Assembly: GCA_008682415.1 (NCBI GenBank) | Contig: VANK01000002.1 | Span: 248,001-312,000, forward strand | Direction of reading: 5' to 3' | Length of the DNA: 64,000 bases | Source of the DNA: Acidobacteria bacterium AB60 | GTDB taxonomy: Bacteria; Acidobacteriota; Terriglobia; Terriglobales; Acidobacteriaceae | Shown here: positions 52,875 through 62,225 of the stretch, in pieces | Layout of the letters: the number at the start of each line of letters is the position of its first letter | Position numbering within the stretch: position 1 is the stretch's first letter | The notes under the pieces: model-generated | What the model was told of the DNA's origin: nothing | The model's database searches: none | What the model saw: the letters and a program-made list of their open reading frames with translations, nothing else | Translations under genes and position numbers: made by a program

Positions 52875-53624
52875 TCAATGAGCAGTCGCCGCTATCTGGT
52901 TTTCCGCGGCTCCCTTCTGAAGGGCCACCGCAAGGTCCTCAGGGTTAAAGCCGAATGGACCCGGCTTGCTCTTGTAGAGCACGCGTCCGCCAGGGGCGAT
53001 CAGATACAGGCGATCAGGCCAGCCGGTGTAGGCTGCCTCGACCTGATTGTCCAACGCATCCACGAGCGCCGGGAATCTGATACCGAGCTTGCGAACGCAC
53101 GCTCCGGCCACGCTGAATCGCTCGCCTTCATTTTTTGGACTGGCGAAGAGGACGTGGTCGCGAACGTTCGATTGCATCTCCCACACGTCAGTTGGATGCG
53201 CTTCAAGGATGTAGACAGCGTAGAACGAGACCTTGTCCTTGTACTGCTCGGCCAGTTTGTTCAGGGCGGGAACCTCCCGCCGAAATGGCGGTCAGGTATA
53301 GCTCCCGAAGACGAGAACGACGGGCTTGCCGGCCCAAAGAGACGCAAGCTGCACCGGAGTCTTCGTATCCAGGGTCTTGACCGCAAAGTCGGGAGCCTGA
53401 TCCCCGGGGTTTACGTGGCCAAACCGAGCCTGCGTCCACATCGTTTCGAATGGGAAGAGGAAGTACGCCGGCATGGGCATGTGCATCATCACGTGCCCGA
53501 AGACCTCGGGAGGCTGATGCATGGCCCAGTCAATATAGGCTACGAACGCCATCCAGGCCACGACGAGCACCCCGCCTATGCTCAGCGCCCACCGCCGGTT
53601 CGTCGGTTTCATTTTCAACCGCAT
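52875..53624 (-). CDS. Deiodinase-like selenoprotein (in-frame TGA = Sec)
   Basis: 249 codons are read through an in-frame TGA at 53292-53294. Before it: a membrane anchor (about 13-31) and the thioredoxin-fold start NPGDQAPDFAVKTLDTKTPV and VLVFGSYT; after it PPFRREVPALNKLAEQYKDK and VYILEAHPTDVW. SYT-U-PPFR is the active-site signature of iodothyronine deiodinase-like proteins, where Sec is the catalytic residue (U111). A 7-bp hairpin stands 10 nt after the TGA. selA, selB, selD and tRNA-Sec are adjacent. It is probably a membrane-tethered redoxin; bacterial homologues have no proven substrate. The start may be the ATG at 53612. Confidence 0.87.
53265..53281 (-). promoter_or_regulatory. Bacterial SECIS element of the deiodinase-like gene
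   Basis: On the minus strand, ten bases after the TGA, GGCGGGA-GGT-TCCCGCC forms a perfect 7-bp stem with a three-base loop starting GG. The distance from TGA to loop (17 nt) and G at the loop start fit the bacterial SECIS consensus recognised by SelB. Confidence 0.75.
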
Positions 53625-53640
53625 CGCTACCGGCCTCCTT

Positions 53641-54237
53641 TCATTTCGTCATCTCATTCAACTCGAGATAGCGCTGTGGCGGTACACCGAAAGCATCAGC
53701 CACGCGATTAAAGAACGCGAACATGGCAGTGATATAAACGGCTTCGGCGATCTGTGGCTCCGTCCAGCCCAATTCCCGCAAATTCTGCACATCATCGGCC
53801 GTGGTGCGATAAGCGGCCTCTGTTACCTTCCCAACATATTCGAGAAGAGCTCGCTCCGCAGGCGACAGGCCCGCCTCTTCAAGCTTGCCCTCAACCAGTC
53901 CCTGCACTGTTGTTTCATTGGCTCCCTGAACACGCAGGAAGTAGGCGTGCGAGTCCAGTCAATAGGGGCACCGATTCAGGTAGGAAACCCAGCTCGCGAT
54001 GGCTTCTTTCTGCCGCCGCGTAAGGTGCCCTTCTGAGAAATGAACCGTGTCGCCGAACCTGAGAACCTCCCGCAGGAAATCCGGGCGGTGACTGAAGCAC
54101 TTGAGAATCCCAGGAAGCTTTTGCCGGCCTGACTTGAGGCGCCACTCATCGTACACTGCGGCGACGTCACCAGTCGCATCGGCGTCCTCAATGATCTTGA
54201 TTTTGGTTTCAGGGTGAGGCTCGGCTTCGAACGACAT
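53641..54237 (-). CDS. AhpD-like selenoprotein with CxxU active site
   Basis: 198 residues are read through an in-frame TGA at 53959-53961. The carboxymuconolactone decarboxylase/AhpD fold is clear: HLTRRQKEAIASWVSYLNRC, then PY-U-LDSHAYFLR, with C90, U93 and H97 matching the CxxC-x3-H of AhpD-type peroxidase-related enzymes, and the second half ending in NRVADAFGVPPQRY. The Sec replaces the resolving/attacking Cys. A candidate downstream stem (CACGC/GCGTG, 53931-53949) is weaker than the SECIS of the neighbouring gene. The two selenoprotein genes lie 16 bp apart and form one operon. Confidence 0.87.
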
Positions 54238-54324: not shown

Positions 54325-56250
54325 TCAGAGAACGATGCGGCGGTCGCCCTCTCTCCGAGTTATACGCTCGTAGTCCAGGTATTCAAGCAGAGGGATAGCG
54401 TATTTTCGACTGACGCCTGCAAGTTGCTTGAATTGTGAGACGTCAAGGCTCTGCCCTCGCATCCGCTGGATCTTGCCTTTCAAATTCAGGAGAGCGTCCT
54501 GATGCATGAAGAGAGAATCGCTACCCAGGCGCACCAGCTTCCTTTCACGAAGCAGGACGGTGACCAATTTTCGAAATTGTGTCAGGTCGATGGCCAGAGT
54601 GGATGCCAAATCGGCCGGCGTAGGCGCCTCGAGGCCAGCCAACTGATACGCGCGAGCGATCTGTGCGAGTTTGTTGTCATCGACCGATGAACGTGGTGGC
54701 GGGCCTTTCGCTGGGAGCAGGCGGTCCTCCACTACTCGCAACTTCTCACTTCGCTCAAGATACTCGATCGCTGCATCGGTAACCTCTGGCTTCAGAGCCG
54801 CCTTGCTCTTGAGAACGGATCGCTTAAATTCTCCGTGGGCGAACAGCTTCTCCAGTTCCTTCTGGACGAGGGCAGATGCCGTGATCATCGCCTCACGAGA
54901 CAAGAAGAGATCGCTTTTGAGTGAATGAATCTCTCCGCTCAAATGCATCTCCTGGAGACGATCTCTGACGAAGGCGACGGTGAAGCCGGTTTCTATGGAT
55001 AAATTTCGGCTGGTAGTCCCCTCCAGCCCTCGCCGCCCCACACGTAGTGAGAAGGTATTTTCCAGGGCTATATGCCTCATTTGCTCCAGCCAATCCTCAG
55101 TCGTCTTCTTCCTTAACCGCTGAATAGGGTGAGCGTCCAGGACACGGCCTCCTCCTATCGTTGAGATCGGTGAACCTTGTCGCAACACGAAGCGATCGCC
55201 AGGCAACAATACGACCGGGTGAGAAAGGCGCAGACGTGCCAGCCGATGACTCCCCGGCAAAATGGGTTGGTAGCCGTATAGGGAAACGTTCGCCATGCAC
55301 TCGGTTGCAAATGCGTGGAAGTGGGCGCGCATACCGTGCTTCAATGGGGGCGCGCTCTCCAGGAGGGCGATCTCCACGTCTACCGCATCCACAGCACTGA
55401 TCGTGTCTGGGGCCACGAGTGTGTCCCCTCGTTGCAAAAGATCGGCATCGACACGATTGAGATTTAGCGCGACGCGAGTTGGTGCTGTTGCACGCTCGGC
55501 AACTTGACCGTGCACCTGAATATTACGGACCTTGGCCAGTCGAGCCCCAGGTTCAACAATCAGTTCCTTCCCAATCGGCACGACGCCGGAGATCAGCGTA
55601 CCTGTGATGACTGTCCCAAACCCCTTTACCGCGAATGAACGATCGATAGGAAGCCGCAACAAAGACTCGCTTTTGGGGTGCGGCAGGCGTGCCGCCAGTT
55701 CGGTGAGCTGCTGTCGAATCTGATCCAGTCCCTCGCCCGTGAATGCGCTCACTGAGATGATCGGCTCGGTGGCGAGGAATGTGGAGGCGAGGAATTTGCT
55801 CACCGAAGATCGAGTCTCATTGAGCCTGCTCGCGTCAACCGCATCGATCTTGGAAAGCACCGTCAATCCATGTTGAACGCCCAGTAGTGAGCAGATTGCG
55901 AGGTGCTCTTCGGTCTGGGGCTTTACTCCTTCTTCGGCCGAGATGACCAATATCACAGCATCGATTCCGCCAGCGCCTGCCAGCATGTTGCGAACGAAGC
56001 GCGCATGCCCCGGAACATCAATAAAGCTTATCCGCAGCTGAGATCGGTCGTGATCTGGCAACACCAGGGATGCGAAGCCTAGATCGATAGTGATCCCACG
56101 CTTCTTTTCTTCGGGTAGACGATCAGTTTCGACTCCGGTGAGAGCACGGATGAGCGCGGTCTTGCCGTGATCGATATGCCCGGCCGTACCAACGACAAGC
56201 GTTTGTTGCGCCGCGTTCGGGCGCGCTTGATAGGGAAGAATATCAGCCAT
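54325..56250 (-). CDS. selB: Selenocysteine-specific elongation factor SelB
   Basis: The gene encodes 641 aa. The GTPase has G1 GHIDHGKT, G3 DVPGHARFV and G4 SKID. Domains II and III follow ([20 protein letters not shown]). The last ~270 residues are the tandem winged helices that bind SECIS RNA, ending [20 protein letters not shown]. It delivers Sec-tRNA to UGA codons that carry a SECIS. The ATG overlaps the end of selA by 8 bp, so the machinery is one operon, selD-selA-selB, followed downstream by the selenoprotein genes. Confidence 0.97.
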
Positions 56251-57724
56251 TTCGCCCCGGAGGAAGATTGCGGGGTTCTTCGGCAGCTATCCGGCGCAGC
56301 TCGCGCGCCAGGTAGGAATCTGAGGCAGGATCCACCGTGCGCAGGTCCAACAGCACCCGACCGCCCTCGATGCGGCCGATGACGGGAGGATCAAGACCGC
56401 GCAAGACGCGCACGAGTTCATCTGAATTGAGACCGCAGTGTTTCAAGGAGATAGCGCAACTCCTCACCCGCGCGGTGGGTGCAGTACCCCCTCCGAGCAC
56501 GCTCGCTACTTCAACCACCTCGGCTGTCAAATCCTGTTTCGAAACCTGTTCCGTGATCCCGAGACAACGACGGCCAATCTCTTCGACACTTGTGGCTAGC
56601 ATCTTCAAAACGGGCAATCCGCTCGCGTTCTCCAGGTACTGATGCAATGTCGCTTCGAGCGCAGCATAGCCAAGCTTATCAACCCGATAGGTACGGAAAA
56701 GAGGGTTCTGGCGGATTCGGTCAATCATGGGCTGCGTGCCTAAAAGGATCCCGCACTGGGGGCCGCCGAACAGTTTATCTCCGCTTGCCGCGATAAGATC
56801 ACACTGCGCTCGGATGCTGCTGACGATCGTAGACTCACCCGAGATTCCGTACGAATCAAGGCTCTCGACGAGGCCGGTGCCCTGATCGTGGAATACGGGC
56901 ACGTTGAGTCGCCTTCCGAGCTCCATCAGGCCTTCCAAGCCGGGCCGCTCAACAAACCCCTGCATGCTGAAATTGGATTGATGCACACGCAGGATCAGAG
57001 CTGAGTTTGGTGTGATCGCCCGCTCATAATCAGCAATGCGCGTGCGATTCGTGGTTCCCACTTCCCTGAGAACGGCTCCGGACGCCTGGAGAATCTCAGG
57101 AATTCGAAAGCCTCCCCCAATTTCGACGAGTTCACCCCGCGATACAAGAACTTCTTGCCCTTTGGCAAGCGCATGGAGTGCCAAGAAAGCGGCCGCAGCA
57201 CAATTATTAACAATGAGAGCGCGATACGTCTCGCCAAGACGACCAACTCCCGCCTTGGACTGCAGTACGTCTAGCAGCAGGGACTCTGTGTGAATGTCGC
57301 GCTTGCCGCGGGCTCCTGTTTCAAGATCGAATTCGAGGTTGCAGTACCCGCAGGCGATGTCAGTCACATGCTGCATGGCCTCGCGGCTAAGAAGTGCTCG
57401 CCCAAGATTGGTGTGAAGCAGAACTCCAGTTGCGTTGATGACGGGGCGGAGAGAATAGAGCCTTTGCTTCCGGAGTTCCTTCTCAATGGCAGAGGGAAGT
57501 TCGGCGATACGATTTTTCAGGCCGTCACGCGAGTGGTTGCCGAGTGCGATCTCCATTCGGAGTACTTCAAGGTGAGTGCGGCACGCCTGCACGATTTGGC
57601 CCCGTGCGTAAGATCGAAGCAAAATCTGTATCGGCTCAGCGATCAGCAATTCGTGGACAGAGGGCAGCTCACGGAAAAGATGCGCCAGGCTATCCGAGAC
57701 AGGTTCGGGAGCTTGCTCCATCAT
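56243..57724 (-). CDS. selA: L-seryl-tRNA(Sec) selenium transferase SelA
   Basis: About 493 aa from the ATG at 57724 with GGAG 7 bp upstream; a TTG at 57745 is possible and overlaps the selD stop. It converts seryl-tRNA(Sec) to selenocysteyl-tRNA(Sec) with selenophosphate, using PLP. Family sequence: INATGVLLHTNLGRALLS, NNCAAAAFLALHALAKGQEV, RVHQSNFSMQGF and the PLP lysine in SGDKLFGGPQCGI (about residue 317). Confidence 0.97.
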   Translation of the reverse strand: MMEQAPEPVSDSLAHLFRELPSVHELLIAEPIQILLRSYARGQIVQACRTHLEVLRMEIALGNHSRDGLKNRIAELPSAIEKELRKQRLYSLRPVINATGVLLHTNLGRALLSREAMQHVTDIACGYCNLEFDLETGARGKRDIHTESLLLDVLQSKAGVGRLGETYRALIVNNCAAAAFLALHALAKGQEVLVSRGELVEIGGGFRIPEILQASGAVLREVGTTNRTRIADYERAITPNSALILRVHQSNFSMQGFVERPGLEGLMELGRRLNVPVFHDQGTGLVESLDSYGISGESTIVSSIRAQCDLIAASGDKLFGGPQCGILLGTQPMIDRIRQNPLFRTYRVDKLGYAALEATLHQYLENASGLPVLKMLATSVEEIGRRCLGITEQVSKQDLTAEVVEVASVLGGGTAPTARVRSCAISLKHCGLNSDELVRVLRGLDPPVIGRIEGGRVLLDLRTVDPASDSYLARELRRIAAEEPRNLPPGRNG

Positions 57725-57741
57725 CGATGCGCTCCATCTGC

Positions 57742-58782
57742 TCAACGGAGGATAATCCGCGGTTCCCCATCGAGAACGGTTCCGATTCGGACCGCCCCTA
57801 ATCCGGCCTCGAGCAAAGAGGCAAGAATTGCAGTTGAAGCCGCCTCGGATACGCTAAGCAAAAGACCACCAGAAGTTTGAGGGTCGAACATAAGGGTATA
57901 GATCTCCTCGGAGATCTTGGCCGAGGGATCCACGCAGACGAGGCACTCGGCGTACTCTCGGTTCGATAGCAGGCCCCCCGGAATGGTTCCCAGGGCAATG
58001 GCATCGAGCGCGCCCGCCAAACGCGGCACCTTTTCCGTCTCGATCTCCAGGGCTACACGGCTGGCGAGCGCGACCTCGCGCCCATGACCCATAAGGCCGA
58101 AGCCGGTGATGTCGGTCATGCCGTGTACTCCCTCATGGGCAGAAGCGGCAGTCGCGGCCGTCAGATTGAGTGCAGTCATCGATTGGACAGCCGCATCAAC
58201 CCAGCTCTCTTGGGCCTTGCCGAGCTTTAGCGCCGTTGTGATCACTCCTGTCCCTAGAGGCTTGGTCAACAACAGAGCGTCGCCGGGACGGGCACCCGCG
58301 TTTGTATAGACTCTTTGGGGATCGATCAGGCCGGTGACCGCATAGCCGAACTTCATCTCCGGGTCCCGAACACTATGGCCCCCGACGATGGTACATCCGG
58401 CCTCCCTCATCTTTTCCAGTCCACCGCGCAGTGTCTGCCCCAGAACGTCCAGATCTCCGTCCTGGGGATAACAGACAATCGCGAGCGAAGTGAGGGGTCG
58501 GCCACCCATTGCATAAACATCGCTCAACGCATTCGCCGCCGCGATCTGGCCGAACGTAAACGGATCGTCCACCATGGGAGTAAAGAAATCAACGGTTTGG
58601 ACGACCGCGAGATGATCGCTGATTCGGTAGACGCCGGCGTCGTCGGACTGATCGAACCCCACCAGGAGATTTGGGTCGATTTGCTGCGGAAGCCGGTCTA
58701 GAACCGCCCGTAACGAACCTGGAGCAAGTTTGCTCGCGCATCCTCCAGCCTTCACGTGTTGCGTCAATCGCATAGAATTCAT
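57742..58782 (-). CDS. selD: Selenide, water dikinase (selenophosphate synthase) SelD
   Basis: The gene encodes 346 aa. It makes selenophosphate from selenide and ATP. The glycine-rich N-terminal catalytic segment GGCASKL gives Cys15 and Lys18, so this SelD uses Cys, not Sec. DDAGVYRISDHLAVVQTVDF, GGHSVRDPEMKFGYAVTGLI and DPQTSGGLLLSV are conserved. It is the first gene of the selDAB operon, divergent from tRNA-Sec 78 bp away. Confidence 0.97.
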   Translation of the reverse strand: MNSMRLTQHVKAGGCASKLAPGSLRAVLDRLPQQIDPNLLVGFDQSDDAGVYRISDHLAVVQTVDFFTPMVDDPFTFGQIAAANALSDVYAMGGRPLTSLAIVCYPQDGDLDVLGQTLRGGLEKMREAGCTIVGGHSVRDPEMKFGYAVTGLIDPQRVYTNAGARPGDALLLTKPLGTGVITTALKLGKAQESWVDAAVQSMTALNLTAATAASAHEGVHGMTDITGFGLMGHGREVALASRVALEIETEKVPRLAGALDAIALGTIPGGLLSNREYAECLVCVDPSAKISEEIYTLMFDPQTSGGLLLSVSEAASTAILASLLEAGLGAVRIGTVLDGEPRIILR

Positions 58783-58860: not shown

Positions 58861-58955
58861 GGAAGTGCTTGGGCTCCGGTGATCCTCCCGGTCTTCAAAA
58901 CCGGCGGTCGTCCTTGACGGGCGACGGTGTGTTCGACTCACACGCACTTCCGCCA
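58861..58955 (+). tRNA. selC: Selenocysteine tRNA (TCA)
   Basis: 95 nt with an encoded CCA. The acceptor stem has 8 bp (GGAAGTGC/GCACTTCC) and the T stem 5 bp (GTGTG/CACAC), giving the 8+5 arrangement of bacterial tRNA-Sec. The anticodon arm is CCGGT-CTTCAAA-ACCGG with anticodon TCA, reading UGA. A long variable arm (GTCGTCC/GGGCGAC) and the D loop TCCGGTGA complete the match to E. coli selC. The discriminator is G. Confidence 0.97.
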
Positions 58956-59862: not shown

Positions 59863-60893
59863 ATGTGTCCGAAGGTGAAGGCTGAAGATGGCCGACGCCA
59901 GAAGACGCCCTATCACTGGGTCATCGAAGGGGACATCAAGGGCTGTTTCGACAACATCGATCATCACCAGCTGATGGAGCGGGTTCGCGCCCGCGTCACC
60001 GACGGGAAAATGACGAAGTTGATTACGCAGTTCCTGAAGGCCGGAGTTCTGGCAGACGGCTTTTTGCTGCCAACAGACAAAGGCATTCCACAAGGTGGTG
60101 TGATCTCACCGTTGCTTGCAAACATCGCCCTCGGCGTTATCGAGGAACAATACGAGCGATGGACACATCATCGTCGAAAGATCCAGGCCCGTCGCAAGAG
60201 CGATGCTCAAACGGCGGCGATGTGGGCACGCACAACTGATCGCAATGCTGGACGGCCGGTGTTCTTCCCGATACGATATGCAGATGACTTCCTGGTCCTC
60301 GTCTCAGGAACTCGTGAGCAGGCTGAACAGGAAGGGCCGAGCTCGCAAGATACCTGAACGATACCATGGGGTTGGAGCTATCCATCGAGAAGACGCGAGT
60401 CTCCGATCTGAAGGAGGGGTTTCAATTCCTCAGTCAGCGCGTGCGCTACAAGTGGCATGGCCGCTTCGGCTATATGCCGAGGATCGAGATCCCGCCCAGT
60501 AAACGAGCGGACCTTCGGCACCGAGTGAAGCAGTTGACCGCTCGCAACACAACACACTGGTCACTGCCTCAACTTCTCCAGCGACTCAATCCTCTTCTGC
60601 GAGGATGGGGAAACTACTATCGCTTCTGCACCGGCGCTAGCCGCCAGTTCTCAACGCTCGACTTCTATGTCGGCGATTGCATCTGGCGGTGGCTGATGAA
60701 GAAGCATAAGCATCTCCATCGCAAGCGGACTCGGTTAGTACGAGTGCCGAGTCTTCTTCGTCCGACACGAAAAGTCTGGCGGGAAGGACGAACAGAACAG
60801 TTCCTTCTCTCCATGCTCCGCGTCGAGCGCTTTCGCAGAGGTTGGATGCGCACACCTGCATACATCTGTGTTCCCGGAGAGCCGGATGCATAA
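59863..60893 (+). pseudogene. Group II intron reverse transcriptase/maturase, truncated and frameshifted
   Basis: The first frame (59863-60357) reads GDIKGCFDNIDHHQLMERVR, KGIPQGGVISPLLANIAL and IRYADDFLVLVSG, the RT palm with YADD. It runs off frame at about 60330, where one A appears lost. The second frame (60366-60893) continues MGLELSIEKTRVSDLKEGFQ and the maturase region LNPLLRGWGNYYRFCTGAS. RT0-RT2 are absent at the N-terminus. Not functional as read. Confidence 0.85.
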
Positions 60894-60914
60894 CGAAAGG
60901 TGCATGTCCGGTTC
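60879..60914 (+). ncRNA. Group II intron domain V
   Basis: The stem-loop starts GAGCCGGATGC, turns at a CGAAAGG tetraloop-like segment, and closes with GTCCGGTTC, matching the domain V consensus GAGCCG...GAAA...CGGTTC. Domain VI and the 3' end follow within 61 nt. Confidence 0.8.
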
Positions 60915-60975
60915 GGAGGGCGGGCATCAGAGTCCAACGACAGAAATGTCGCACGGCGCTGATGCTCGACCCTAC

Positions 60976-61523: not shown

Positions 61524-62225
61524 TCACCTGTACGGAGACAGGGGCAGGTCATTACGACCGAGTGCGCGGATGTGATTCGATTTCGCCCATCCTAAATCGA
61601 CACGCGTGCATTCAAGCGCGGCGACTTCAAATCCCGCAGCCTCAAGAAGAGCTGATACGGACTGAGGAAAATAGAAGTTGATATGTTCGTGGATGCCGAT
61701 CTGTAGGCTTGATGTGCCTTGCACCCAGTCTTTGCGCTGTTGGTCCGAGACTTCCTGTGGGGTCTCAATGTAAAGACAACCACCATCCGCCACGTAGGAG
61801 CGCAATTTAGTAATAAGTTTCAACGGATCTGGCAGGTGCTCTACCACGTGTGCTAACAGCACCAGAGGATATACGCCCAATTCCGATTCTTCGTGCTCAG
61901 GCATGTGCAGTTCAATATGAATCGCGCCGCTACTGGGTGCCTGCGCGTCCACCGCTTCGTCGCCCAAACCTGGTGACGCTTCGACATCGGCAGAGATCGT
62001 CACCGGCAACAAAGCTGTTGGTCTGGTGCTTGCATCGGCCAACTGGCCTCGCTCGAATAGGCGACGCCACTTGAACACCCGGTTCGCGTTCACATCATGT
62101 GCCCGGGCAATCTCGGCTACGCTTGCACCTGGCTTCATCGTCAACTGCACGATCTCGAGCTTCTCTGAAGCCGTTCGCCTTTTCCTGCCACGCTGCCGTG
62201 AACCCGCAACCTCTGCATGTGTCAT
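61524..62225 (-). pseudogene. Chimeric ORF: IS66 TnpA start, methyltransferase fragment, IS3 end
   Basis: This 233-codon ORF is assembled from three sources. Residues 1-106 are IS66-family TnpA (EKLEIVQLTMKPGASVAEIA, VFKWRRLFERGQL, GAIHIEL). Residues about 107-225 are the C-terminal half of a class I SAM-dependent methyltransferase (LLAHVVEHLPDPLKLITKLR; LYIETPQE; HINFYFPQSVSALLEAAGFE). The last eight residues, DLPLSPYR, are read from the IS3 inverted repeat. The methyltransferase lacks its SAM-binding first half, so it should be inactive. It was probably once a neighbour of the FkbM gene in a glycan or polyketide-type cluster. Confidence 0.8.

Follow-up and report, generated by a model that had tools for sequence, protein, structure and literature searches.

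A deiodinase-like gene with a predicted selenocysteine codon and SECIS hairpin next to the sel genes of an Acidobacteriaceae bacterium

The deiodinase-like gene dio of Acidobacteria bacterium AB60 is very probably a genuine selenoprotein gene, in which the in-frame UGA at codon 111 would be recoded as selenocysteine (Sec). Recoding of this codon with the help of a functional SECIS hairpin is strongly supported by comparison of homologous sequences, which showed a shared TGA codon, a constraint on synonymous codons at the hairpin and compensatory changes in its stem across the phylum. The features predicted in the analysed stretch of DNA (64,000 nucleotides, referred to as the window) are collected in Table 1.

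Table 1. Predicted features of the dio locus, with positions counted from the first nucleotide of the window
Feature	Position	Strand	Basis
Deiodinase-like selenoprotein gene (dio)	52875..53624	-	ORF, Pfam PF00837, AlphaFold, hydropathy
UGA codon for Sec111 (SYT-U-PPFR)	53292..53294	-	TGA in 39/39 distinct homologues; Cys in distant ones
SECIS hairpin of dio, GGCGGGA[GGT]TCCCGCC	53265..53281	-	Geometry, synonymous constraint, compensatory changes, energy
Shine-Dalgarno-like AAGGAGG, 9 nt 5' of the dio ATG, directly past the ahpD stop	53634..53640	-	Read from sequence
AhpD-like (peroxidase-related, CMD) selenoprotein gene (ahpD), 198 aa + stop, CPYU	53641..54237	-	PF02627 56.2 bits; TIGR01926 100.2 bits
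UGA codon for Sec93 of the AhpD-like protein	53959..53961	-	TGA in 24/24 distinct Sec-type homologues; TGT/TGC in 4 Cys-type
SECIS hairpin of ahpD, CTTCCTG[CGTGTT]CAGGGAG, loop 24 nt after UGA	53922..53941	-	Stem identical in 24/24 Sec-type; -7.5 kcal/mol
selB, Sec-specific elongation factor	54325..56250	-	TIGR00475 371.6 bits, cut-off 242
selA, L-seryl-tRNA(Sec) selenium transferase	56243..57745	-	TIGR00474 491.2 bits
selD, selenide water dikinase, without in-frame stop	57742..58782	-	TIGR00476 372.8 bits
tRNA-Sec, anticodon UCA, divergent from selD	58861..58955	+	ARAGORN; Rfam RF01852 69.1 bits

The dio frame and its UGA codon

The dio frame was read from the ATG at 53624 to the terminal TGA at 52877-52875 and encoded 249 residues followed by the stop. 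Its single internal stop was the TGA at SYT-U-PPFR, as the initial annotation of this DNA had described, and the translated context of the codon was VFGSYT-U-PPFRREVPALNKL. Codon 111 was TGA in all 39 distinct homologues from the Acidobacteriaceae, with protein identity down to ~54%, and when 200 genomes of the order were surveyed, all full-length members of the Sec-type dio clade carried TGA at the same codon. The distant homologues of Cys type (14 distinct sequences) had TGC or TGT in this column without exception (14/14). Every relative seen therefore had Sec or Cys at residue 111, the position that had been taken as the active site. One locus with a TAA in range (L005) was excluded from the alignment (A1).

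Protein family, fold and active site

The dio product matched the Pfam family T4_deiodinase (PF00837) with 102.9 bits (E 2.1e-29, cut-off 27), and its best sequence matches in the PDB were mouse Dio2 and Dio3. The AlphaFold model of the protein had a mean pLDDT of 83.6, and its top fold matches were again Dio2 and Dio3, with target-normalised TM scores of 0.81 and 0.80, followed by ResA and later by AhpE. The label “deiodinase-like” given to the gene was thus good at the level of the family, but the name must not be taken as thyroid-hormone deiodination. The deiodinase family NF038285 of NCBIfam (347 aa) was not assigned, as the match of 193.9 bits was below the cut-off of 250 and covered only part of the model (179-340).

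The protein consisted of an N-terminal membrane helix at about residues 12-33 and a thioredoxin-fold domain from about residue 70. Since the strongly hydrophobic helix of the dio product (hydropathy 2.18 over residues 13-31) is preceded by five basic residues (K/R), the positive-inside rule predicts a periplasmic location for the catalytic domain.

Roles in Dio3 have been described for Ser167, Thr169, Sec170, Tyr197, Glu200, His202 and Trp207 (PMC7506546). These residues corresponded to S108, T110, U111, Y138, E141, H143 and W148 of the dio product, and none of the seven varied among the Sec-type sequences that were aligned (26/26). The alignment contained no conserved His in the loop of Dio3 His219 (Dio1 His174), and at the place of the Dio3 Arg275 clamp it contained Pro221, with a Lys/Arg one residue earlier in most members. 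All members of the Sec clade had Cys176, which is located in the helix of residues 166-180, and the Cys paralogues lacked it. Compared with the animal Dio1-3, the dio product was alike in the N-terminal membrane helix, the thioredoxin-fold domain and the motifs SxTUPPF, Y..E.H..D.W and GPF/GPD. It was different in that its SECIS element is of the bacterial in-frame kind, whereas the animal element is located in the 3'UTR, and in the lack of His219/Arg275 counterparts, the presence of the invariant Cys176 and the lack of a thyroid hormone context. A separate Cys-type deiodinase-like family was also seen (L064-L074), whose members of 313-387 aa contained FGSATCP and an extra C-terminal part; most of them had a PAH motif in the loop, which resembled the Dio His219 region (PQHRS).

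Proposed function of the dio product

The dio product is most likely a periplasm-facing selenol oxidoreductase or peroxidase. It would be a membrane-anchored thioredoxin-fold enzyme, in which the Tyr-Glu-His network typical of deiodinases supports the selenol of SYTUPP. Sec111 would attack a peroxide or another electrophile, and the resulting selenenyl intermediate would be resolved either by the invariant Cys176, which we consider a candidate resolving residue, or by an external thiol.

Deiodination of the thyroid type by this protein is unlikely and is unsupported, since nothing in the protein evidently corresponds to Dio His219 and Arg275, while dehalogenation of another compound is possible. 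True deiodinase chemistry, with an iodo- or bromo-aromatic compound from the environment as the target of reductive dehalogenation, would fit the retention of all of the Dio active-site residues Sec, Thr, Tyr, Glu, His and Trp, as well as the closest folds Dio2 and Dio3. We regard it as rather improbable, however, as equivalents of Dio His219 and Arg275 are not retained, the ResA and AhpE-like folds ranked close behind Dio2/Dio3, and no dehalogenation genes were seen adjacent to dio. Another function had also been anticipated for the bacterial proteins by Zhang et al. in 2005, because bacteria are without thyroid hormones (PMC1088965).

The SECIS hairpin of dio

The hairpin was separated from the UGA codon by a 10-nt spacer (53291-53282) and consisted of the 5' arm GGCGGGA (53281-53275), the loop (53274-53272) and the 3' arm TCCCGCC (53271-53265). 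The 7 Watson-Crick pairs, the GGT loop and the coordinates of the initial annotation were exact; the strand, which had been left unstated, is the minus strand. In the bSECIS model, the apical loop has 3-9 nt, the upper stem has 4-16 bp, the first two loop positions are G, the apical loop lies 16-37 nt from the UGA, and the MFE is <= -7.5 kcal/mol (PMC13188914 Fig. 2). The dio hairpin was within these limits in its 3-nt loop of GGU, its stem of 7 bp and its energy, which was -12.2 kcal/mol for the hairpin alone and -13.3 kcal/mol over 40 nt. Its loop started 17 nt after the UGA, also within the range of the model. In the start of the loop with GG, the 3-nt loop, the 7-bp stem and the distance of 17 nt, the hairpin was similar to the fdhF-type SECIS of E. 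coli and the bSECIS consensus, but its stem sequence was unrelated to the fdhF type. Unrelated stem sequences are usual among bSECIS elements. At the fixed register, the loop was GGT or GGC in 44 of the 49 distinct Sec-type sequences. An alternative 5-bp hairpin (CCGCC/GGCGG) overlapped the 5' arm, and its left arm was unconserved.

The description of this element as a “textbook” SECIS hairpin held through the comparative tests below and not through its folding energy, which by itself was no better than chance for DNA this rich in GC. Compared with dinucleotide shuffles, the z-score of the energy was -1.15, with 27 of the 200 shuffles as good, and this value was not significant and was dropped as support for the hairpin. 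Hairpins of SECIS geometry with at least 7 Watson-Crick pairs were located downstream of 20 of the 1903 TGAs in the window (1.05%). Owing to this frequency and the z-score, a textbook hairpin alone would be weak evidence. It is through the shared TGA, the synonymous constraint, the phylum-wide compensatory changes and the absence of the stem from Cys-type genes that the evidence for the hairpin becomes strong.

Synonymous codon variability was normalised to the codon usage of dio itself and calculated from 39 distinct sequences. It fell to 0.16 of the expectation (H/He) at codons 115-120, the lowest value of 54 windows (median, 0.86), and in 100,000 permutations no randomly drawn set of columns was as low. 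The codons CGG, GAG and GTT in the hairpin were essentially fixed, whereas the codons for Pro, Phe and Leu on its flanks were free to vary, and within dio the synonymous freezing was restricted to the hairpin codons 115-120.

The stem is nearly invariant in the Acidobacteriaceae, and covariation there was too small, which is why phylum-wide sequences were used together with the synonymous constraint. Relatives from the phylum with roughly 33-57% identity retained the TGA, and they also had a hairpin whose loop was rich in G and whose distance from the TGA was equal or close to that in dio. The compensated stems included GGCGGGC[GGT]GCCCGCC, GCGTCA[GGT]TGGCGC, CCGCTC[GGTC]GAGCGG, CGGTC[GGTC]GACCG, GAAGATC[GGC]GATCTTC and GGGCTGGC[GGC]GCCAGCTC. 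A stem of at least 5 consecutive pairs was present in 46 of the 49 distinct Sec-type sequences and in 0 of the 14 distinct Cys-type sequences (Fisher 2e-11). The p-values of these comparisons are only nominal because sequences within a clade are non-independent; the covariation between distinct clades does not depend on them.

These comparisons also bear on the possibility that the hairpin is a by-product of the GC-rich coding of PPFRREVPA and carries no RNA signal. The folding z-score of -1.15 and the comparable stems near about 1% of the window TGAs would agree with such an origin, but it is very improbable, as the synonymous positions were frozen exactly at the hairpin and nowhere else, homologues that encode other residues (RRSVGR, KKIGDL or GLAAPA) had rebuilt a stem closed by a G-rich loop at an equal or similar distance, and Cys-type homologues rebuilt no stem. 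Acting as a SECIS element, the GGU-loop hairpin just 3' of UGA111 would be bound by SelB with Sec-tRNA(Sec), and the ribosome at this codon would insert selenocysteine without termination.

Two explanations dispense with recoding altogether, and each has a very small probability. A nonsense mutation or a sequencing error may have changed the TGC/TGT of a Cys gene to TGA and left a pseudogene, which would agree with the TGC or TGT at the Sec111 codon of the distant homologues; this is regarded as already refuted, because the close homologues, which came from many genera and assemblies, all had the same TGA followed by an intact frame, and the codons past the TGA were under synonymous constraint. 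A misreading of TGC/TGT, which the initial annotation had named as a risk, was likewise dismissed, since independent genomes carried the same TGA. The UGA might otherwise end a membrane protein of 110 residues, with the rest translated from an internal GTG (an ORF with a GTG start at 53186 is indeed present downstream), but the thioredoxin fold would then be cut in its middle, at the catalytic residue that precedes helix alpha-1, the GTG lies 35 codons past the TGA so that the active-site helix would be lost, and the hairpin was conserved solely in Sec-type genes. Genome-wide reassignment of TGA was rejected too, as ahpD and dio both end in TGA without a comparable SECIS-like stem; the stems at the terminal TGAs of dio and ahpD had only 3 and 5 bp, respectively.

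The sel genes and gene order

The genes selA, selB and selD and the tRNA-Sec gene formed a complete Sec-decoding set within 6 kb. The initial annotation had not included these adjoining genes or the Sec gene directly upstream of dio. The genes selD and selA, as well as selA and selB, overlapped by a few bases, and the gaps were 87 nt between selB and ahpD and 16 nt between ahpD and dio. Together with the Shine-Dalgarno sequence AAGGAGG before dio, these overlaps and short gaps suggest that selD-selA-selB-ahpD-dio is one apparent operon with dio as its last gene.

The order of sel genes, ahpD and dio was repeated in many related loci, including one of Acidicapsa (L032), and in Edaphobacter (L039) dio adjoined the sel genes without ahpD. 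In the 200-genome survey, selB was found above the curated cut-off in 32 of the 35 genomes with Sec-type dio and in 54 of the 165 others (p = 7e-11). Among the three Sec-type dio genomes without selB above the cut-off, two showed fragmentary selB matches. The profile search did not find selB in the nearly complete assembly of genome G117, which contained Sec-type dio and ahpD genes (L022, L054, L082) and a tRNA-Sec match of 69 bits; this absence would be due either to an assembly gap or to a divergent factor. No description of the ahpD-dio pair joined to sel genes was found in the open-access literature, and of all aspects of the locus, the conserved pairing of ahpD/dio with the sel genes has been documented least.

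Two mobile-element-like features were observed beyond the tRNA-Sec gene. A group II intron remnant was located near it at 59863-60975 (+) and was present as a single copy in the genome; its RT and maturase pieces were carried by separate ORFs, and its 3' end matched RF00029. The ORF at 61524-62225 (-), in which an HTH_Tnp_1 transposase domain was joined to Methyltransf_23, is perhaps an insertion-sequence fusion.

AhpD-like and other selenoproteins

The AhpD-like protein matched TIGR01926 (CxxU) above its cut-off of 81.8 bits, with the second cysteine of CxxC replaced by TGA. It fitted the known AhpD-like selenoproteins of this family exactly and was distinctive in the place of its gene between selB and dio. 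Within ahpD, synonymous variability was lowest at the hairpin (0.25, p about 1e-5). All of the four Cys-type homologues came from genomes without selB above the cut-off, and a stem was still possible at the hairpin register in two of the four, which made the contrast between Sec-type and Cys-type hairpins weaker for ahpD. Among the 200 genomes, 17 had both Sec genes, 18 had only dio and 2 had only ahpD; according to these numbers, ahpD and dio were associated but were not obligate partners.

Hydropathy predicted no membrane helix in the AhpD-like protein, so electron transfer across the membrane between it and the dio product would need another carrier. A direct electron relay from the AhpD-like to the deiodinase-like protein was kept as a weak idea, given that the catalytic domain of the latter is predicted outside. 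It is conceivable, though doubtful, that the conserved operon combines the machinery with its clients and that in aerobic soil Acidobacteria the two selenoproteins form one physiological module for redox reactions or dehalogenation across the inner membrane. The dio product would then act on a substrate from the environment, either by true reductive dehalogenation or as a selenoperoxidase.

The same genome also contained a gene for a Sec formate dehydrogenase-like molybdopterin oxidoreductase (G000:C22:456344-457081; L086, ORF from 1153). Its Sec motif was ARI-U-HSASVPGLG, and its hairpin, GGTGCCCG[GTC]TGGGCGCC, had the loop 19 nt past the TGA. Three selenoprotein genes were thus found in the genome of the window (dio, ahpD and the formate dehydrogenase gene). 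For Occallatibacter riparius DSM 25168, three known selenoprotein genes have been counted, whose names are not given in the part of that source considered here (PMC12013277).

Relation to known bacterial selenoproteins

Deiodinase-like and AhpD-like bacterial selenoproteins were reported in 2005 from the Sargasso Sea set (PMC1088965) and are also listed in reviews (PMC9312934, PMC13188914), and dio is therefore not the first of its type. It has in common with the bacterial deiodinase-like selenoproteins reported then (PMC1088965) the Pfam family, the active-site Sec, the SECIS element just downstream, and the existence of both Sec and Cys forms. It is different from the known ones in its tie to the sel operon and an AhpD-like selenoprotein and in its occurrence in soil Acidobacteriaceae. 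The motif given for deiodinase-like proteins in the reviews is UxxC (PMC9312934, PMC13188914), whereas the dio clade has UPPF, like the animal deiodinases. Two distant deiodinase-like relatives (L108 and L109) contained UxxC (GSIT-U-PYCG), the motif of the reviews, together with an 8-bp SECIS-like stem.

Our results indicate that deiodinase-like selenoproteins, which in the literature found were mostly from marine metagenomes, occur widely in the soil Acidobacteriota, and that their SECIS element covaries across the phylum. Both dio and ahpD would be split by ordinary gene calling at stop codons. The conserved link to the sel genes makes this locus a tractable system for the function of the bacterial relatives of thyroid deiodinases.
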